This document shows, one piece after another, positions 2,098 to 62,385 of a stretch of 64,000 nucleotides of DNA. The stretch covers positions 1,984,001 to 2,048,000 of the forward strand of contig NC_014935.1 in NCBI RefSeq assembly GCF_000186245.1, read 5' to 3'. A program made the translations under genes and the position numbers. The stretch comes from Nitratifractor salsuginis DSM 16511 (GTDB lineage: Bacteria; Campylobacterota; Campylobacteria; Campylobacterales; Sulfurovaceae). A model generated the notes under the pieces. That model made no database searches, was not told the origin of the DNA, and worked only from the letters and a program-made list of their open reading frames with translations. Each line of letters starts with the position of its first letter. The first letter of the stretch is position 1.

Positions 2098-2148
2098 ATC
2101 GGCCACCTCGTCCAAAATTTCTATCTTCTAATTTCTCATTTCCGGTTT

Positions 2149-4991: not shown

Positions 4992-6353
4992 TTGTGGAAG
5001 AAAATTTCGGAATATTTTAGCACTTACTTATTAATGGGGGCTTTGCTTACGGCGCTCTCGGGCTCCGCCTTTCTCTACCTCGCCTGGCTGGGTTGGGAAC
5101 CCCGATGGCTCGATACCCTGCTGGCACTGATCTTCTACTGGCGGCTTTTGGGCTCCGATCGTCGTCACTGGTTCTGGACCGGATTTTTCCTCGGGCTCCT
5201 CTGGTTCTGGTGGCTGGGAGTGAGCTTCATCCACTACGGCCACCCCGGGGCGCTACCTTTCGTCGATCTCACCGTTGCCCTGATCTACGCCCTCATTTTC
5301 TGGATTTTCGCCTTCACTGCGGAGACAATGACAACCTGGGCAAAATACTTCCTAAAAAAATTCTCAATTCTCAATTCTCAATTCTCAATTCGTAGCTCAT
5401 GGTTAAAAGCCGCAGCGCTTTTAACCATGAGCTACGCCCATCCCTTCGGTTTCGACTGGTTCAAAGCCGAACTCCCCCTCGTCCCAGGCTATTTCGGAGT
5501 GGATAAGATCTCCTTTGCTTCACTGCTTTTCGGACTCTGCCTGGCACGGGAGGCGTGGGAAGCCTATCATCAAAAGCGGCACAGATATGCCGTTGTACTG
5601 GGGCTTCTGGGCACCCTGTTCCTGCTCAGCGCTCTGAATCCGAGCCGGGTGGAGGTGCGGCCCCAGGACCCGGAGGGCCGCATCCTGCTGGCCCCGACCC
5701 ACATCCCGATCGAAGCGAAATGGAGACCTGAAACCCTCTCTTCCCAGATCGGTGACGTCTTTCAAGCCATCGACCGTGCGATCGATGCCCACGCTTCCCT
5801 GGTCGTTCTGCCCGAATCGGTGCTTCCTCTTTTCCTCAACCGGGAACCGCAACTCCTTCGCGCTCTGGAGGATCGCTCGAAAAAGATCGATATTCTCCTG
5901 GGAGCTCTCTATCGGGGGGCGGACGGGCAGAACCGCAACTCGGCCTATCTCTTCCATCAAGGCTCCTACCGGGTCGCGAACAAGGTGGTACTGGTCCCCT
6001 TCGGCGAAGCCAACCCCCTGCCGGACTGGGCGAGCCGATGGGTCAACAGGCTCTTTTTCGACGGGGCACCCGATTATCGCCCCGCTTCCCACTCCACCGA
6101 CTTTCTCATCGGCGGCGTCCGTTACCGCATCGGAGTCTGCTACGAAGGGAGCAGCGAAATCCTCTACAAGGACCGCCCCTCCCATCTGCTCCTTTTGAGC
6201 AACAACGGCTGGTTCCACCCTTCCATCGAGCCGACGCTGCAGCGGCTTTTGCTGGAATATTATGTGCGGAAATACGGCACCGCCATCTACAACAGTGTCA
6301 ATATGGGGCCTTCTTATCTGCTTCGCCTCCGAAACAGAGGAGAGACGGACTAA
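4992..6353 (+). CDS. lnt: Apolipoprotein N-acyltransferase (Lnt)
   Basis: 453 residues. Lnt adds the third acyl chain to the N-terminal cysteine of outer-membrane lipoproteins. An N-terminal block of membrane helices (to about 210) is followed by the nitrilase-like domain. The catalytic triad is visible as Glu275 in VVLPES, Lys331 in NKVVLVPFGEANPL and Cys383 in RIGVCYEG. The TTG at 4992 has GGAG 8 nt upstream; an ATG at 5034 is the alternative start and would leave room for a promoter. Odd feature: residues about 124-145 are encoded by an intergenic-type CAATTCT tandem array and a 19-bp perfect hairpin (5361-5435). This is an in-frame insertion between membrane helices. Confidence 0.93.
   Translation: MWKKISEYFSTYLLMGALLTALSGSAFLYLAWLGWEPRWLDTLLALIFYWRLLGSDRRHWFWTGFFLGLLWFWWLGVSFIHYGHPGALPFVDLTVALIYALIFWIFAFTAETMTTWAKYFLKKFSILNSQFSIRSSWLKAAALLTMSYAHPFGFDWFKAELPLVPGYFGVDKISFASLLFGLCLAREAWEAYHQKRHRYAVVLGLLGTLFLLSALNPSRVEVRPQDPEGRILLAPTHIPIEAKWRPETLSSQIGDVFQAIDRAIDAHASLVVLPESVLPLFLNREPQLLRALEDRSKKIDILLGALYRGADGQNRNSAYLFHQGSYRVANKVVLVPFGEANPLPDWASRWVNRLFFDGAPDYRPASHSTDFLIGGVRYRIGVCYEGSSEILYKDRPSHLLLLSNNGWFHPSIEPTLQRLLLEYYVRKYGTAIYNSVNMGPSYLLRLRNRGETD
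5361..5435. repeat. CAATTCT tandem array plus 19-bp perfect hairpin inside lnt
   Basis: Four to five copies of a TTCTCAA heptamer (5361-5390) are followed at once by a perfect inverted repeat: stem 5392-5410, loop 5411-5416, stem 5417-5435, with no mismatch in 19 bp. The same heptamer array recurs in gaps at 44.1 and 44.85 kb. Here it lies in the lnt reading frame and is translated as FSILNSQFSIRSSWLKAAALL. The right stem encodes residues that fit the normal Lnt helix (TMSY before AHPFGFDWFK), so the left stem looks like an inverted copy of host sequence. Confidence 0.9.
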
Positions 6354-18306: not shown

Positions 18307-18328
18307 CGTATTTCCCTTTCGGGGAAAA

Positions 18329-18508
18329 ATGAGGAATGAGGAATGAGGAATGAGGAATTTTGGAAACGAAACGTCGTTTCGATTTTTATTGACATAAATT
18401 GCCTTTGCTATATGATGTTAAAACAATATCCAACTTTTTTGGAAGCCCATAGCTTTACGGAGTAAAGCTTACCAAAACTCCTCACTCCTCACTCTTAACT
18501 CCTCACTT
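18329..18508. repeat. Inverted pair of short tandem arrays with hairpins (ispG-priA gap)
   Basis: Left arm: four GAATGAG units (18329-18357), then ATTTTGG and hairpin CGAAACG-T-CGTTTCG (18367-18381) followed by ATTTTTATT. Right arm (minus strand): GTGAGGA-type units (18476-18508), then GTTTTGG and hairpin AGCTTTAC-TCC-GTAAAGCT (18451-18469). The two arms are inverted versions of one module. The 213-nt gap has no gene. Confidence 0.85.
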
Positions 18509-42548: not shown

Positions 42549-42640
42549 GAATAACCGAGCAACCGAGTAATGAGTAACCGAATAACCGAGTAACCGAATA
42601 TTAAATTCGTAACACTTAGCACGTAACACGAAAAGAAAGG
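42549..42640. repeat. GTAACCGA-type tandem array after ppk
   Basis: Five to six degenerate copies of an 8-nt unit (GAGTAACC/GAATAACC) from about 42549 to 42600, then GTAACAC/GCACGTAACAC units to about 42632. The rest is the ribosome-binding region of the next gene. No hairpin was seen in this copy. Confidence 0.8.
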
Positions 42641-43956: not shown

Positions 43957-44140
43957 TCGCAAGTTATTTGGTCATTAGCCATTGATCATTAGTCATTGGG
44001 TAGATATTGGATTTGGGGCATTAGGGCATTGGGCATTAGGGCATTGGGTTCGTTTATACTGCGTGCCAAGAGTTTTGCATAGCCCCAATGAAGCCTTCAT
44101 ATTCTCAATTCTCAATTATTCGCTTACTCGGTTGATTCAG
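43957..44140. repeat. Mosaic tandem-array block, left copy flanking the toxin-antitoxin pair
   Basis: In order: GTCGCAA, GTCATTAGCC-type units, GGATTTGGGGCATTAGGG with three CATTAGGG-like units (to about 44047), a spacer, then CAATTCT units (44101-44118) and TTACTCGG units. The block recurs in the same order and orientation at 44719-44900, so the toxin-antitoxin genes sit between direct repeats. Confidence 0.85.
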
Positions 44141-44148
44141 TTGATTAT

Positions 44149-44180
44149 TTGACTTCTTTGCACTACAATTGTATATACAA
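44149..44180 (+). promoter_or_regulatory. Toxin-antitoxin promoter with 12-bp palindromic operator on the -10
   Basis: TTGACT (44149-44154), a 17-nt spacer and TATATA (44172-44177) form a near-consensus sigma-70 promoter 25 nt upstream of the antitoxin ATG. The -10 is embedded in the perfect palindrome TTGTATATACAA (44169-44180). RHH antitoxins usually repress their own promoter by binding such sites. Confidence 0.75.
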
Positions 44181-44202
44181 AATAGCAGCAAGGGGCTCGC
44201 TA

Positions 44203-44433
44203 ATGAAAAAAGCCGTCAATATCCGTCTCGAAGAGGAGATGCTGGAACAGCTGGATGAGTATGCCCACGAATTGAACAAGACCCGAACCTCTTTGGTGGA
44301 AAAAGCGATCGAACTCTATTTCGATCGTCTCGATGAGATGGTCGCTGATCGAAGAATCGACGATCTGAAAAAAGGCAAAAGCGAAGTGGTCTCTATAGAG
44401 GAGGTCTTCAAAAAAGCCGGGATCGAGTTTTAA
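44203..44433 (+). CDS. Ribbon-helix-helix antitoxin
   Basis: 76 residues from the ATG at 44203 (AAGGGG upstream); an upstream in-frame start overlaps the promoter and is rejected. The N-terminal MKKAVNIRLEEEMLEQLDEYAHELNKTRTSLVEKAIELYF is a ribbon-helix-helix DNA-binding domain. The charged C-terminal helix (VVSIEEVFKKAGIEF) probably wraps the toxin. Its stop overlaps the toxin ATG by 1 nt. Likely autorepressor. Confidence 0.9.
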   Translation: MKKAVNIRLEEEMLEQLDEYAHELNKTRTSLVEKAIELYFDRLDEMVADRRIDDLKKGKSEVVSIEEVFKKAGIEF

Positions 44434-44684
44434 TGTTCGCCGTCGCCTTTGAAAAACGGGCCGAAAAGGAGTTTCTCAAACTCGATCCCGAGACCCGAAA
44501 GCTTATCGCCGCAAAGATCCTCGATCTTCAAAAAGGCAATTTCCGGGGGGACAAAGCCCTCCAGGGCAAACATAAAGGCAAATTTAGAAAACGTGCCGGA
44601 AACTACCGCATCATCTACTACAAAGAGGGGCAACTCCTGCTCATCACCATCATCCGCATCGCCCATAGAAGAGAGGTCTACTAG
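44433..44684 (+). CDS. RelE/ParE-family toxin
   Basis: 83 residues with the compact RelE fold: VAFEKRAEKEFLKLDPETRKLIAAKIL, then LQGKHKGKFRKRAGNYRIIYYKEG, then LLLITIIRIAHRREVY. The basic FRKRAGNYRIIY segment and C-terminal HRREVY are typical of RelE-type ribosome-dependent mRNA interferases; a ParE-type gyrase poison cannot be excluded. Co-translated with the antitoxin. Confidence 0.9.
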   Translation: MFAVAFEKRAEKEFLKLDPETRKLIAAKILDLQKGNFRGDKALQGKHKGKFRKRAGNYRIIYYKEGQLLLITIIRIAHRREVY

Positions 44685-44718
44685 GCGTTGCAAATCGTAT
44701 GCTCGGGCCTGCGGCCCT

Positions 44719-44900
44719 CAAGTCGCAAGAGAATCGGTCATTGGATAGAAATTGGATTTGGGGCATTAGGGCATTGGGCATTAAGACATTAGGAAAAATT
44801 CAAGCGCATTCCCCTATCCAAAATCCAAAATTCTCCATTCTCCATTTCCTATTCTCAATTATTCGGTTACTCATTACTCGGTTGCTCGGTTACTCGGTTA
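44719..44900. repeat. Mosaic tandem-array block, right copy flanking the toxin-antitoxin pair
   Basis: Same order as the block at 43957: GTCGCAA, GGTCATTGG, GGATTTGGGGCATTAGGG with CATTAGGG units, then CCAAAAT units (44817-44832), CTCCATT and CAATTCT units (44831-44860) and GGTTACTC units (to 44900). A GGGCC-TGC-GGCCC hairpin (44705-44717) lies just before it, after the toxin stop. Confidence 0.85.
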
Positions 44901-44910
44901 TTCATAATGT

Positions 44911-44943: not shown

Positions 44944-46263
44944 ATGTCAAAAAAACTCCATCTCGTCAGCCTCGGCTGCACCAAAAACCTGGTCGACAGC
45001 GAAGTGATGCTGGGCAAGCTGGCCGACTATGAACTCAGCGACGAGCCTGCCGAAGCCGATGTGATCATCGTCAACACCTGCGGCTTCATCGAAGCGGCCA
45101 AGGAAGAATCGATCGCCACGGTCCTGGATCTGCACGAGCGGCGCAAAGAGGACTCTCTGCTGGTGATGAGCGGCTGCCTCAGCGAGCGCTACAAGGAGCA
45201 GCTCCAAAAGGAGATGCCCGAGATCGATATCTTCACCGGTGTCGGGGATTATGAACGCATCGACGAGCTGATCCGCCAAAAGCAGAGCACCTTCAGCCCC
45301 CAGGTCTACCTGGCCACCGAAAAATCCCCCCGGCTCATCACCGGCTCCAACTACCACGCCTACATCAAGATCGCCGAGGGGTGCAACCAAAACTGCTCCT
45401 TTTGCGCCATCCCCTCCTTCAAAGGGCGGCTCCAGTCCCGCACCCTCGACTCCATCGTCGCCGAAGTCTCGGCCCTGACCGCCAAGGGCTTTTACGATTT
45501 CAGTTTCATCTCCCAGGACAGCTCCAGCTACGGGCGGGACCTGGGGATGAGAGACGGGCTCATCGACCTCATCCGCCACATGGAGCAGATCCCCGGTGTT
45601 CGCAGCGCCCGGATCCTCTACCTCTATCCAAGCACCACCAGCTTCGAGCTCATCGACGCCATTGCCGACTCCCCCGTCTTCCAGACCTACTACGATATGC
45701 CCATTCAGCACATCGACGACCGGGTGCTCAAGACAATGAAGCGGGGCTTCGGCGAAGCCAAAACCCGGGAGCTTTTGGAGGCGATGCGCTCCAAAGAAGG
45801 AAGCTTCGTGCGCACCTCCGTCATCGCCGGCCATCCGGGAGAGAGTGAAGAGAGTTTCCGAAAACTCTGCGACTTCCTGGAAAGCTTCGGCTTCGACCGG
45901 ATCAACGTCTTCGCCTACTCCAACGAGGAAGAGACCGCCGCTTACGAAATGGAGCAGCTCCCCGAAGAGGTCATCACCCGGCGCACCGAGATCCTGGGAG
46001 AGATCGCCCAGCGCTCCCGGGACGCCTCTCTGGAGAGGATGATTGGACGCCGCTGCCGCCTTGCCATCGACGGCCCCAGCCAGGAGCACGAATACCTCCT
46101 CTCCGCCCGCCCCCTACTCTGGGCCCCCGAGATCGACGGCGAAGTCCTGGTCAACGACACCAACGATCTCGACGTGAAGATCGGAGGGCTCTACCAAGGA
46201 AAGATCACTGAAAAGGCGGGGGAGTATTTGCTCGCTTCGCTCGAAACTCCGCTAACCGAGTAA
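44944..46263 (+). CDS. rimO: Ribosomal protein S12 methylthiotransferase RimO
   Basis: 439 residues. The UPF0004 domain starts with KLHLVSLGCTKNLVDSEVMLGKL and VNTCGFIEAAKEES, giving two of the three Cys ligands of the first cluster, and SGCLSERY the third. The radical-SAM motif is EGCNQNCSFCAIPSFKG (CxxxCxxC). YPSTTSFELIDAI and a C-terminal TRAM domain follow. It adds a methylthio group to Asp88/89 of ribosomal protein S12. The stop lies at the edge of the next tandem array. Confidence 0.96.
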   Translation: MSKKLHLVSLGCTKNLVDSEVMLGKLADYELSDEPAEADVIIVNTCGFIEAAKEESIATVLDLHERRKEDSLLVMSGCLSERYKEQLQKEMPEIDIFTGVGDYERIDELIRQKQSTFSPQVYLATEKSPRLITGSNYHAYIKIAEGCNQNCSFCAIPSFKGRLQSRTLDSIVAEVSALTAKGFYDFSFISQDSSSYGRDLGMRDGLIDLIRHMEQIPGVRSARILYLYPSTTSFELIDAIADSPVFQTYYDMPIQHIDDRVLKTMKRGFGEAKTRELLEAMRSKEGSFVRTSVIAGHPGESEESFRKLCDFLESFGFDRINVFAYSNEEETAAYEMEQLPEEVITRRTEILGEIAQRSRDASLERMIGRRCRLAIDGPSQEHEYLLSARPLLWAPEIDGEVLVNDTNDLDVKIGGLYQGKITEKAGEYLLASLETPLTE

Positions 46264-46310
46264 CCGAGTAACCGAGTAATGAGTAACCGAGTAACTGAAT
46301 ATCCAGTCGA
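46256..46310. repeat. GTAACCGA tandem array, left arm around the four-helix-bundle gene
   Basis: Five or six GAGTAACC-like units begin in the last codons of rimO (TAACCGAG) and run across the start codon of the next gene, so its first residues (MSNRVTEYP) are repeat-encoded. The inverse array (GGTTACTC units) lies at 46680-46715, right after that gene. Confidence 0.85.
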
Positions 46311-46659
46311 TGATCCGTTGAGCCGGAAAAGTTTTCACTTTGCGATACGCATTGTGAAATTGTCCAAATATTTGAGGGAAACTCATCAGGAATATGAGCT
46401 GGCCAAACAGGTAATCCGTAGCGGAACGGCGATCGGGGCACTGGTCCGCGAAGCCAAATTTGCTCAATCCAAGCCTGATTTTCTCCATAAACTCTCCATT
46501 GCTCTTAAAGAAGCCTATGAAACGGACTATTGGTTGGAACTTCTTTGGAAGTCGGACTATTTGGATGACAAAATGTATCAAAGCATCAAACCGGAAATCA
46601 CGGAACTCCTGAAAATTCTGGTCTCAAGTACCAAAACAATCAAACACACTGAAAAATAG
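46279..46659 (+). CDS. Four-helix-bundle protein (23S rRNA intervening-sequence protein family)
   Basis: 126 residues. KSFHFAIRIVKLSKYL, QVIRSGTAIGALVREAKFAQSKPDF and LSIALKEAYETDYWLELL are the typical blocks of the bacterial four-helix-bundle family first seen as 23S rRNA intervening-sequence ORFs. These proteins form pentamers; function unknown. The gene is framed by inverted GTAACCGA arrays, and its ATG lies inside the left one. It ends 1 nt before the tilS start. Confidence 0.88.
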   Translation: MSNRVTEYPVDDPLSRKSFHFAIRIVKLSKYLRETHQEYELAKQVIRSGTAIGALVREAKFAQSKPDFLHKLSIALKEAYETDYWLELLWKSDYLDDKMYQSIKPEITELLKILVSSTKTIKHTEK

Positions 46660-47694
46660 ATGAAAAATTCCCCCACCGATCGGTTACTCGGTTACTCGGT
46701 TACTCGGTTACTCATTAATAAAAACAATTTACTCGCTTTCTCCCACGGCCTGGACTCCACCGCTCTCTACCACCTCCTCAAAGAGTCTGACATCCCCTTC
46801 GACATCGCCCTGGTCAATTACGGCGTGCGGCCCGAAGCGGAGGAGGAGGAAGCGGCGGCGAGGGAGTTGGCCCGAAGAGACAAGCGGCGGATTTTTGTCG
46901 CTCACGCTCCCGGGTTCCGTAGCAATTTCGAAGCCGAGGCACGGCGCTTTCGCTACGACTTTTTCGAATCCCTCATCGATGAGCACGGTTATGAGAATCT
47001 CCTGACCGCCCATCAGCTCAACGACCGTCTGGAGTGGATGATGATGCGGTTGATCCGCGGGGCGGGAACGGTGGAGCTGGCGGGGATGGAGGCGGTTGCG
47101 AAGCGTTTCACCGCTTCAGGCACCCCCTATCGGCTCATCCGCCCCCTGCTGGAGACTCCAAAGTACGAGCTGGAGCACTATCTGCGCTCACGGGGGGTCG
47201 AATGGTTCGAGGACAGCAGCAACGCCTCCGACACCTACGAGCGCAACCGCCTGCGCCCGCTCCTGGAACCGCTGGTCCGCCGCCACGCCTCCGGCATCGC
47301 CCGGAGCTTCGACTATCTGGCGGAGGACGCCGCCTACCTACGCCGAGGCTACCGGGAGCTCTACCGGGAAAAGCTCCTGCGCATCCTCCAAGTTTCAGTC
47401 CCTTCGCTCATCCCCCTGGCGACCGCGGAGACCCTCAAAAAATTGAGCTATCTTCCGAGCTATAAAGAGCGGGAGCTTCTGCGCCAACACTCTTCTCTGG
47501 TTCTGGGCAGGCGCTGGGCGGTGGAACGACGGGGGGATCTCCTCTTCATCGCCCCCTATCACGACGATGTAACGATGGAGAAAGCCTTTCGGGAGCGCTG
47601 CCGCCTCTTGAATATCCCTCCAAAGATCCGCCCCTACCTCAGCCTCCAAGGGATCGAACCCGAGCACCTGCCCCTACCCTCTGCTGAGGGGTAA
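46660..47694 (+). CDS. tilS: tRNA(Ile)-lysidine synthase TilS
   Basis: 344 residues, short form. The PP-loop is LAFSHGLDSTALYHLL (28-33); the usual SGGxDS has His at the second position. TAHQLNDRLEWMMMRLIRGAG and the IRPLLETPKYELEHYLRSRGVEWFEDSSNASDTYERNRLR block are diagnostic for TilS. It modifies C34 of tRNA-Ile (CAU) to lysidine, an essential step for AUA decoding. The N-terminal 7-20 residues are repeat-encoded. The C-terminal tRNA-binding domain is minimal. Confidence 0.9.
   Translation: MKNSPTDRLLGYSVTRLLINKNNLLAFSHGLDSTALYHLLKESDIPFDIALVNYGVRPEAEEEEAAARELARRDKRRIFVAHAPGFRSNFEAEARRFRYDFFESLIDEHGYENLLTAHQLNDRLEWMMMRLIRGAGTVELAGMEAVAKRFTASGTPYRLIRPLLETPKYELEHYLRSRGVEWFEDSSNASDTYERNRLRPLLEPLVRRHASGIARSFDYLAEDAAYLRRGYRELYREKLLRILQVSVPSLIPLATAETLKKLSYLPSYKERELLRQHSSLVLGRRWAVERRGDLLFIAPYHDDVTMEKAFRERCRLLNIPPKIRPYLSLQGIEPEHLPLPSAEG
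46676..46720. repeat. GGTTACTC tandem array, right arm, inside the 5' end of tilS
   Basis: Four near-perfect 8-nt units (CGGTTACT) from 46680 to 46715. They are the inverse of the array at 46256-46310. They are in the tilS reading frame and encode DRLLGYSVTRLLIN. No ATG, GTG or TTG lies between the array and the PP-loop in frame, so translation through the array is needed. Confidence 0.88.
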
Positions 47695-58571: not shown

Positions 58572-59980
58572 AGCTCTCCCAACTCTTCTTCCGCCGGAGT
58601 GCGTTGATCCTGACGGTGACCTTCATCCTGGCGGCGCTTACCGGTTACTACCTCCTGCGGCAAATGGAGATCGACACCCACGCGCGTATGCTGCGCAACA
58701 GCCTGACGATCCTCGAGCAGGAGCTCCAAACCCTCCCTCCCGCGAAGATCCCCGCCACCCTGCGCACCATCCACCAAAAGACCGGCATCCGCATCACCGT
58801 CATCGCCCCCGACGGAAAGGTGCTCTTTGAGAGCAACCGCTCTCCCGTGGGGATGGAGAACCACGCCACCCGCCCCGAGATCCTCCAGGCCAAAAAATCG
58901 GGATGGGGCGAAGCGGTGCGCCACTCGGCCACTCTGGATGAGGACCTCCTCTATATCGCCCACCGGGAGGGCGACTCCTACCTCAGAACCGCCTACTCCC
59001 TGGAGCGCATCCACCGTCAGCTCCTACAGCTCTGGCTCAAAGCCCTGGGCTTTTTCGCCCTGATCCTTCTGCTGATTCTCGCCCTGAGCCTCCGGCTCAA
59101 TCGCCGAATCCAGGGCGACAGCGACCGCCTCCGCCGCTCCCTGGAGCAGCTATTGGAAAAAAATTACGACGCCGAGATCGATACGGTCGAGTGCTGCAAA
59201 GAGTTCGCCCAGATCCGCAAGATGCTCCGGAAGGTCTCCAAAAAATTGGCGAAACGGGAGCGCCAAAAGGCCAAATACACCAAAAAACTCAAAACCCTCA
59301 CCCGGCGCCAGAGCGACATCATCTCCGCCATCAGCCACGAATTCAAAAACCCCGTCGCCGCCATTATGGGCTACGCCCAGACCCTCCGGGAGAGCCGAAA
59401 CCTCGATCCCCAGATCCGGGAGCGTTTTTTGGAGAAGATCCACAGCAACGCCGAGAAGATTTCGGCGATGATCGACCGCCTATCCCTCGCCATCCGCCTG
59501 GAGAACCGGGGCTTCACCCCCAAGCGCAACCGTTTCCCCCTCTCTCAAGTCATCAGCTCCGTGCGGGAGACCCTGCTGCAGAAATACCCGGGCCGGGAGA
59601 TTGTTTTGGAGTGTGAACCCGTCGAGCTGGAAGCCGACCGGGATATGATCGAGCAGGCGGTAATGAACCTGATAGAAAATGCCCTGAAATACTCCGCTGA
59701 CAAGGTGATCGTCCGCTGTGATGCCGAAAAACTGGAGGTGATCGACCGGGGAGAAGGGATCGAGCCTGGAGACCTGGAAAAGATCACCAAAAAATTCTAC
59801 CGCGTCGACCGCCTCAGCTGGAACAACTCCATCGGCGTAGGCCTCTACATCGTCAAATACATCCTCCGCCTCCACGGAACGGAGCTCGAAATACGCAGCG
59901 TCCCCGGAGAGGGGTCGGTCTTTGGGTTTTCACTGCGGGGGATGAAAGAGAGGAATGAGAAACTAGAAACTAGAAACTAG
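58565..59980 (+). CDS. Sensor histidine kinase
   Basis: 471 residues. Two membrane helices (about 14-36 and 159-178) enclose a periplasmic domain of about 120 residues. After a HAMP-like linker the dimerisation domain has the phospho-His in SAISHEFKNPVAAIMGYAQTL near 258; the ATPase has VMNLIENALKYSADKVIV (N box), VIDRGEGIEPGD (G1), and NNSIGVGLYIVKYILRLHG (G2). The C-terminal tail (RNEKLETRN) is encoded by a GAAACTA tandem array, so the repeat has reset the stop codon. Confidence 0.93.
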   Translation: MLKLSQLFFRRSALILTVTFILAALTGYYLLRQMEIDTHARMLRNSLTILEQELQTLPPAKIPATLRTIHQKTGIRITVIAPDGKVLFESNRSPVGMENHATRPEILQAKKSGWGEAVRHSATLDEDLLYIAHREGDSYLRTAYSLERIHRQLLQLWLKALGFFALILLLILALSLRLNRRIQGDSDRLRRSLEQLLEKNYDAEIDTVECCKEFAQIRKMLRKVSKKLAKRERQKAKYTKKLKTLTRRQSDIISAISHEFKNPVAAIMGYAQTLRESRNLDPQIRERFLEKIHSNAEKISAMIDRLSLAIRLENRGFTPKRNRFPLSQVISSVRETLLQKYPGREIVLECEPVELEADRDMIEQAVMNLIENALKYSADKVIVRCDAEKLEVIDRGEGIEPGDLEKITKKFYRVDRLSWNNSIGVGLYIVKYILRLHGTELEIRSVPGEGSVFGFSLRGMKERNEKLETRN

Positions 59981-60016
59981 AAATTTTGGTTTGCGTTGCT
60001 TTGCAACGCTTTTTTT
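59953..60016 (+). terminator. Tandem array plus intrinsic terminator of the kinase operon
   Basis: GAAACTA units (59957-59982) are followed by ATTTTGG and then a perfect hairpin GCGTTGC-TTT-GCAACGC (59993-60009) with a run of seven T. This is the clearest intrinsic terminator in the window and shows that the array-plus-hairpin module can end transcription. Confidence 0.9.
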
Positions 60017-60072
60017 AAAAATAGGAAGTCTATAAGCAGATAAAACAGCTCAAACTCTTGGTAGTCTCTAGC

Positions 60073-61201: not shown

Positions 61202-61328
61202 TCAAAAGTCGCAAGTCGCAAGATTTTTGGAATATTAGTCATTTGAGATTGTTCAGGAAGATTCTCAATCCAAAATCTAAAATCCAAAATTCTCAATCCG
61301 AAGGTTTACAGCTCGCTGTAAACCTTCG
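61150..61328. repeat. Array module spanning mltB start to aroC stop, with 13-bp perfect hairpin
   Basis: GTAGTGG units in the mltB signal region (61153-61190), GTCGCAA units (61206-61222) with ATTTTTGG, and TCAATCCAAAAT units (61263-61298). Then a perfect hairpin: 61299-61311 and 61316-61328 with loop CTCG. The right stem is aroC coding sequence and the left stem is its inverted copy; the aroC stop lies in the left stem. Confidence 0.85.
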
Positions 61329-62385
61329 TCAGGTGTTCCATCCTGCTTCCCATATTGAGCAGGGCCATATCGGCCAGGGTCAGGGCCATCATCGCTTCGC
61401 AGACGATGACCCCCCGGATGGCGACGCAGGGATCGTGGCGGCCTTTGAGCTTGTAGCGGATGCTCTCCCCTTCGGTGGTGAGGCTCTGCTGCTCTTTGAA
61501 GATGCTGGGGGTGGGCTTGAACCATGTGGTGACGTAGATCTCGTCGCCGTTGCTGATGCCGCCCAGGATCCCGCCGCTGTTGTTGCTCCCGAAGCCCTCC
61601 GGGGTAATCGGATCGTTGTTCTCGCTCCCCTTCATCCGTGCGGCGGCGGCCCCTACGCCGACCTCCACCGCTTTGGCGGCGTTGATCCCCATCATCGCCT
61701 CGGCCAGGATCGCGTCGAGTTTGTAATAGAGGGGCTCGCCAAGGCCCGCCGGAACTCCCACGGCCCGGGTCAGCACAGCCCCGCCGACGGAATCGTGGGC
61801 CTCTTTGGCCGCCAAGACCGCTGCCTCCTGCGCCTTCTCCGCCTCGGGGTCGAGGGCGTTGAGGGGGCTCTTTTTGGCGTGCTCAAAATCGCAGCGTTTC
61901 GCTTCAATCCCGTCGATCTCCACGATCCCCGCTTCCACGGTGATTCCCAACTCCCTGAGCATCAGCTTGGCCACGGCCCCCGCCGCAACCCGCGCCGCCG
62001 TCTCCCGGGCGCTGGAGCGTCCCCCGCCCCGGTAATCCCGGATCCCGTATTTGGTCCAGTAGGTGTAGTCAGCGTGGCCGGGGCGGAAGAGCTTTTTGAC
62101 ATTCTCGTAATCCCGGCTCTTCTGATCGGTGTTGAAGATCACCATCGCGATGGGGGTGCCGGTGGATTTCCCTTCGAAGACCCCCGAGAGGATCTCTACC
62201 CGGTCGGGCTCTTTGCGGCCGGTAGTCAGGGCGCTCTGCCCAGGACGGCGGCGGTCCAGCTCACTCTGGATAAAGGCTTCGTCGATGGCCAGACCCGCCG
62301 GCACGCCGTCGAGCACACAGCCGATCGCTTTGCCATGGGATTCTCCGAAGGTGGTCAGTCTCAGTTTCCGTCCGAAGGTGTTCAT
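61306..62385 (-). CDS. aroC: Chorismate synthase AroC
   Basis: 359 residues. The three FMN/EPSP signatures are present: [39 protein letters not shown] and [23 protein letters not shown]. It makes chorismate from EPSP with reduced FMN, the last step of the shikimate pathway. Its ATG overlaps the rnc stop (ATGA). The order rnhA-rnc-aroC is conserved in Helicobacter and Campylobacter. The last codons fall in the hairpin described at 61299-61328. Confidence 0.97.

Follow-up and report, generated by a model that had tools for sequence, protein, structure and literature searches.

A heptamer array and gene-copied hairpin inside lnt of Nitratifractor salsuginis recur with shared polarity at gene edges

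How does a conserved enzyme gene come to carry a short tandem array that runs directly into a perfect hairpin? This question is raised by lnt of Nitratifractor salsuginis DSM 16511, a bacterium of the sea floor. The gene, whose product is a membrane enzyme, lies in the window, the 64,000-nt stretch of DNA that was analysed, and comprises the following features.

4992-6353, plus strand: lnt, an open reading frame of 453 amino acids for apolipoprotein N-acyltransferase, which carries the insert in frame
5359-5391, minus strand: heptamer array of 4.7 AATTCTC units, encoding residues 123-134
5391-5410, plus strand: left (outer) hairpin arm, CGTAGCTCATGGTTAAAAGC, gene DNA copied in inverted orientation
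5411-5416, plus strand: hairpin loop of 6 nt, CGCAGC
5417-5436, plus strand: right (gene-side) hairpin arm, encoding the conserved Lnt residues LLTMSYA

The open reading frame scores 143 bits against the NCBIfam model TIGR00546 (cut-off 132.9). A sequence-only reading of this DNA had placed a CAATTCT-type array in the lnt frame, running straight into a perfect 19-bp hairpin. The arrangement is real, at 5359-5391 and 5391-5436, and both parts lie in frame within the ORF at 4992-6353, as had been claimed. Tandem Repeats Finder reports a period of 7, 4.7 copies and 100% matches for 5359-5391, and the inverted repeat is indeed perfect, with arms of 20 rather than 19 bp and one base shared with the array. 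As RNA, the hairpin is predicted at -33.3 kcal/mol, compared with -8.3 +/- 2.2 for shuffled sequences (z -11.3); the combination of array and hairpin is not due to chance. On the minus strand the array reads (GAATTGA)n; this C-free strand is directed away from the part of lnt that lies downstream. A reading of the hairpin as an intrinsic terminator was rejected, as no T run comes immediately after the stem: on the sense strand the next letters are CCCATCCC, and on the opposite strand the array comes next. In an AlphaFold2 model, the array-coded residues 123-134 are predicted to form a loop between helices 85-123 and 135-146, in agreement with the proposed position of the insert between helices, and they are the least confident stretch of that loop (pLDDT about 68).

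Lnt was sought in 40 related genomes, and 30 loci, that of the window included, were aligned. The motif LL-x-MSY encoded by the right arm is kept through the order, so that this stem does encode normal Lnt residues, while the stretch coded by the left arm is variable outside the group except for one lysine. Because the right arm is conserved across the order and the left is not, the left arm is the copy, and the proposal that it represents inverted host DNA holds. In the array-poor genomes G003, G008 and G012 and in other genera, the insert is absent and the loop is mostly shorter by roughly 9-14 residues, less than the 15-20 residues which the insert had been thought to add. Relatives had also been predicted to lack these residues and to align without a gap at the flanks. 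The array-poor ones do so, but the array-rich ones carry heptamers at the same loop, namely CCATTCT in G007, CCAACAT in G005, CTCCTCA and CCATTCA in G010, CTCACTG and GTCATTG in G009, CCATCTT in both G002 and G006, and, in another genus, TTCACTA in G017 together with a near-equivalent of the hairpin. At the same lnt codons as in G000, the genomes G005, G007, G009 and G010 possess perfect hairpins of their own, whose arms differ between genomes and co-vary: of the nine variable pairs in the five sequences, eight show changes in both arms, and there is no pair in which a single arm has changed. This covariation score was reached by none of 500 shuffles, and it collapses in slid versions. In G001, G002, G006 and G011 heptamers occupy the lnt loop without a stem. 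The arrays of G001 and G002 differ in length by exactly 21 nt, equivalent to three units or seven codons, as would be expected from slippage under constraint by the reading frame. The stemless lnt of G001 contains AAAAGG...CCTTTT, a candidate inverted seed, and at gene starts the Shine-Dalgarno AGGAG together with CTCCT codons is another candidate.

The insert of G009 is longer and consists of two convergent arrays around GCGTTGCAAAGCAACGC, a GCGTTGC hairpin, an anatomy that is otherwise intergenic. Convergent arrays of this kind within a gene are not predicted by a function in 5'- or 3'-untranslated regions. Arrays might also be the ends, facing inward, of a miniature mobile element, small and non-autonomous, that inserted between genes and once into lnt. 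Such an element would explain the convergence around a conserved GCGTTGC-nnn-GCAACGC centre, the genes which adjoin without a spacer in array-poor relatives, and the occurrence of the whole anatomy in the lnt of G009. However, the units at a given site differ between species, the two ends of a single spacer usually differ in unit as well, and the hairpin is host and not element sequence, and we therefore consider this origin very unlikely. Assignment to MITEs was likewise rejected, because the two arrays of a spacer, which usually differ in unit, do not constitute matching terminal inverted repeats. Assignment to REP or BIME elements (RAYT-linked) was rejected because there is no single palindrome, the arm sequences differing from locus to locus and each matching its own gene.

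The view of array and hairpin as a local event in lnt proved incomplete, since the combination recurs in the lnt of relatives and, genome-wide, at gene starts and ends. The own genome was sampled over 464 kb, consisting of the window and 20 stretches of 20 kb. In this sample, 43 exact arrays have a period of 7, compared with 0-4 for each of the periods 3-6 and 8-13. A tolerant scan yielded 67 arrays, mostly C-free on one strand; in 48 of the 67, the C content of one strand is 5% or less. Six of the ten perfect hairpins in the sample (stem of at least 12, loop of at most 10) adjoin a heptamer array (P about 2e-10), and in all six the hairpin lies 5' of the array as read on the C-poor strand. 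They occur at the starts of tsaD and queH, at the ends of purE, a radical-SAM-like ORF and the ORF at 61306, and inside lnt, and dxr has a 10-bp version. The common layout is gene DNA, followed by an inverted copy of its last 9-23 bp, followed by a C-poor array of about four heptamers, whose C-poor strand invariably points 5' to 3' outward from that gene DNA. Further features of the window are listed below.

61261-61299, no strand assigned: second heptamer array, of ATTCTCAATCCAAA-type units, directly adjoining a hairpin
61299-61328, no strand assigned: second array-adjoining perfect hairpin, with 13-bp arms and a loop of 4, at the 3' end of the minus-strand ORF 61306-62385
18328-18358, plus strand: array of 4.4 AATGAGG units, convergent with the next array and followed by a terminator-like hairpin
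18477-18501, minus strand as the C-poor strand: array, convergent partner of 18328-18358
2116-2142, minus strand: degenerate heptamer array just past the secF stop codon, its C-poor strand pointing away from secF

When stems scoring at least 9 were counted along the C-poor strand, 11 of 66 own arrays had one on the 5' side and 2 of 66 on the 3' side; in sampled stretches of the core genus the numbers were 20 of 148 and 3, and random positions had such stems in 6 of 1500 cases. We prefer these ratios (11:2 and 20:3) as less biased than the count of 45 in 236, which includes orthologue loci chosen for their hairpins. Stem pairs show 8 mismatches in 651. No stem adjoins the majority of arrays (about 83-86%), indicating that the array step and the hairpin step are separable. 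It might thus be argued that two unrelated and well-known processes, slippage and quasipalindrome correction, merely share sites, in that hairpins stall polymerases and slippage follows. The stemless majority would fit this, as would hairpins that can outlive their arrays, as at purE, where the stem in G005 has persisted beyond its outward array and that in G006 is itself decaying. Neither the one-sided placement of the stems nor the outward polarity of the stemless arrays is predicted by such a coincidence, however, and we rate it as quite unlikely.

At gene starts and ends alike, the C-poor strand points 5' to 3' away from whichever gene edge is closest, in 39 cases versus 6 in the own genome, in 30 versus 1 in other core members, in 35 versus 4 and 8 versus 1 in two Clostridiales genomes, and in 13 versus 1 in Anabaenopsis; gene flanks without arrays have no such bias (122:134). 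Neighbouring arrays within 200 bp of each other in the own genome are convergent in 15 cases, tandem in 3 and divergent in none, and convergent-to-divergent ratios amount to 15:0, 9:0 and 66:5. Arrays of the GAATGAG pattern were found on at least 119 contigs from many phyla. Among the matches listed for this pattern (314 arrays), perfect stems of at least 9 occur eight times on the 5' side and twice on the 3' side, half of the eight being from Campylobacterota; without Campylobacterota and with mismatches allowed, the numbers are 8 and 5 (278 arrays among the matches listed). Thus, the polarity generalises beyond Campylobacterota, and the coupling to hairpins is established only for the Nitratifractor group. 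In the Clostridiales genome G043 (L274, L288 and L251), arrays adjoin a single repeated family of 17-18 bp hairpins, AATTCTGATTTATCGAGC, unlike the gene-copied stems of Nitratifractor, and these hairpins were left out of the support for gene-edge copying. The same polarity relative to the DNA on both sides of genes and within lnt points to a process at the DNA level, and the direction shared across the genus and with other phyla suggests a common DNA-copying process.

The edges of orthologous genes reveal a pattern similar to that in lnt. At dxr, tsaD and purE, array-rich species carry a hairpin at the same edge with species-specific arms, as in the dxr hairpins CAGGACCATAAAAGCC gga GGCTTTTATGGTCCTG, TCACCATGAAAATTC aaag GAATTTTCATGGTGA and CGAGAAGGATCATGAA ... 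TTCATGATCCTTCTCG, and in array-poor species the corresponding edges lack a hairpin and, in many cases, the spacer as well. At the starts of dxr and tsaD the arms can be seen by eye to have changed together, and the start of a hydrolase gene resembles lnt in this respect; the arms at purE show little covariation. No loop inversions were noticed among the few lnt, purE and hydrolase loops. At the tsaD and hydrolase starts, the stem pairs the Shine-Dalgarno sequence AGGAG with CTCCT codons. The tsaD start of G006 (L096) has a perfect stem of 23 bp with a 3-nt loop over the Shine-Dalgarno sequence and start codon, predicted at -41 kcal/mol.

The main remaining rival is selection at the RNA level. 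Hairpins and arrays might be functional mRNA elements, with compensatory change reflecting selection: at gene starts, a G-free unstructured leader would serve as a ribosome standby site ahead of a hairpin holding the Shine-Dalgarno sequence, and at gene ends, the terminator would come after a stem and a spacer free of C. Concerted arm change would be expected, T-tailed terminators often follow the arrays, and Shine-Dalgarno sequences or start codons at tsaD, dxr and the hydrolase gene are enclosed in stems of 15-23 bp with predicted RNA stabilities of -30 to -41 kcal/mol. On the other hand, the unit also occurs inside lnt, where nothing starts or ends, and a polarity that is equal relative to the DNA at starts and ends gives the sense strand an opposite composition at the two. 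In addition, the stems are nearly all Watson-Crick although RNA helices tolerate G-U; there are three G.T and two A.C pairs in the hairpins versus one and two in a terminator control, small numbers with an equally flat control, which make this comparison not decisive. Taken together, we hold selection on mRNA to be unlikely as the explanation of the units.

The feature in lnt exemplifies a recurrent DNA-level unit, and we consider it fairly probable that such units are generated by fold-back copying and slippage-amplified heptamers. Where a fork stalls or a break arises beside conserved gene DNA, a 3' end would fold back on a short inverted seed and copy the gene edge by template switching, or snap-back synthesis. 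C-poor sequence would next be added to this end and amplified by slippage in steps of 7 nt. Later template switches may re-copy the hairpin, so that the outer arm tracks the evolving coding arm, and slippage may turn over the array. Both the origin from a 3' end and this order of events are what we infer from the layout, and the fact that no intermediate has been observed speaks against the fold-back mechanism, as does the possibility that selection on RNA or DNA structure maintains the hairpins instead. Template switching is described as making and homogenising short inverted repeats, also in coding DNA (PMC8794818, PMC8604942). In lnt, the unit would have entered an inter-helix loop that tolerates insertions and been kept because it was in frame; the insert is most likely a tolerated passenger, whose lack of function in Lnt we likewise infer.

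Several candidate activities were rejected. A reverse transcriptase as the source of the repeats (telomerase-like, retron or DRT) was dismissed, since the whole genome has no match to PF00078, which does match control genomes, and joining by NHEJ was dismissed since Ku is absent from the genus. With both absent, no named enzyme accounts for the extension of the end. Loss of ExoI or ExoVII does not distinguish array-rich from array-poor genomes either, as ExoI is absent from all 13 genomes of both kinds and ExoVII is present in 11-12 of 13, array-poor ones included. Telomeric repeats are short, their C-poor strand runs 5' to 3' outward, and head-to-head interstitial telomeres represent fusions. 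The C-poor outward strand of the arrays, and convergent pairs resembling head-to-head fusions, invite comparison; the analogy is one of polarity only, since there is no chromosome end and no PF00078 reverse transcriptase, and the units differ from locus to locus. It might be speculated that a 3'-end extension conserved across bacterial phyla supplies DNA ends near genes with C-poor heptamers of telomere-like polarity, often after snap-back, convergent arrays being the scars of two joined ends and the lnt insert one such scar within a gene. We regard this more far-reaching version as unlikely.

Heptameric repeats have been described as GGGAATC in Xanthomonas and GGGGA(C/T)T in Nostoc (PMC4692102), and as TAACTGA arrays in Beggiatoaceae, Cyanobacteria and Bacteroidetes (PMC4679880). 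They are dispersed, mostly intergenic, of period 7 and most often about four units long, as are the arrays described here. The repeats of Xanthomonas and Nostoc also share a G-rich strand with ours, and GGGAATC forms close convergent pairs, with 70 and 75 cases in two Xanthomonas species (both PMC4692102). In contrast to Nitratifractor, where units vary by locus and species, one unit per genome is described, and the available text of both papers reports neither an adjoining inverted gene copy nor a general rule of polarity at gene edges. The excess of period 7 and the whole-unit change in copy number at lnt place our arrays among heptameric simple sequence repeats (STRR-like). Hairpins ascribed to template switching or quasipalindrome correction (PMC8794818, PMC8604942, PMC7202029) similarly consist of a perfect inverted copy of neighbouring DNA, with homogenised arms and also in genes; their available text links them neither to tandem arrays nor to a fixed strand polarity. 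The Nitratifractor hairpins share with this class that one arm copies adjacent ancestral sequence and that the arms are homogenised between species, at lnt and the hydrolase start and weakly at purE. In the P6b stem-loop of the Nostoc trnL intron, heptamers (TDNGATT, NNTGAGT) also change fast at a fixed, hairpin-linked site (PMC4476775). There, however, it is the repeats that pair, as the stem of a group I intron, whereas the Nitratifractor stem consists of copied gene DNA and leaves the repeats unpaired.

In the literature searched, with subscription papers mostly outside it, no description of the array-hairpin unit or of the outward rule was found. Each ingredient is known; their coupling and polarity may not have been described before, with novelty unproven. 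The over-representation of heptamers in bacterial genomes is known, and we are aware of no stated cause. A fixed polarity at gene edges and the coupling to snap-back copies turn this into a mechanistic question. The hairpins rewrite gene edges, as where the Shine-Dalgarno sequence becomes paired with early codons in tsaD and the hydrolase gene. Proteins are likewise extended or altered by them, Lnt being an example, so that the process would be a source of innovation at gene edges and in protein loops.

Other repeats were observed in the same genome. A family of T-tailed GCGTTGC-nnn-GCAACGC hairpins lies about 8 nt past the 3' end of arrays on the C-poor strand (for example at 59958-60020 of the window and L033:13419-13490); this includes sites that have no gene read in that direction. 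At 42552-42597, 44016-44905 and 46253-46713 of the window, intergenic clusters are composed mostly of the 8-nt units TAACCGAG, TTACTCGG and GGGCATTA together with heptamers, and by their appearance these are longer-period relatives of the heptamer arrays. Very long arrays consist of 27 TGAGAGT units (L046:4201-4393) and 15 TGGTCGT units (L044:13307-13412), and both are candidates for highly variable loci.
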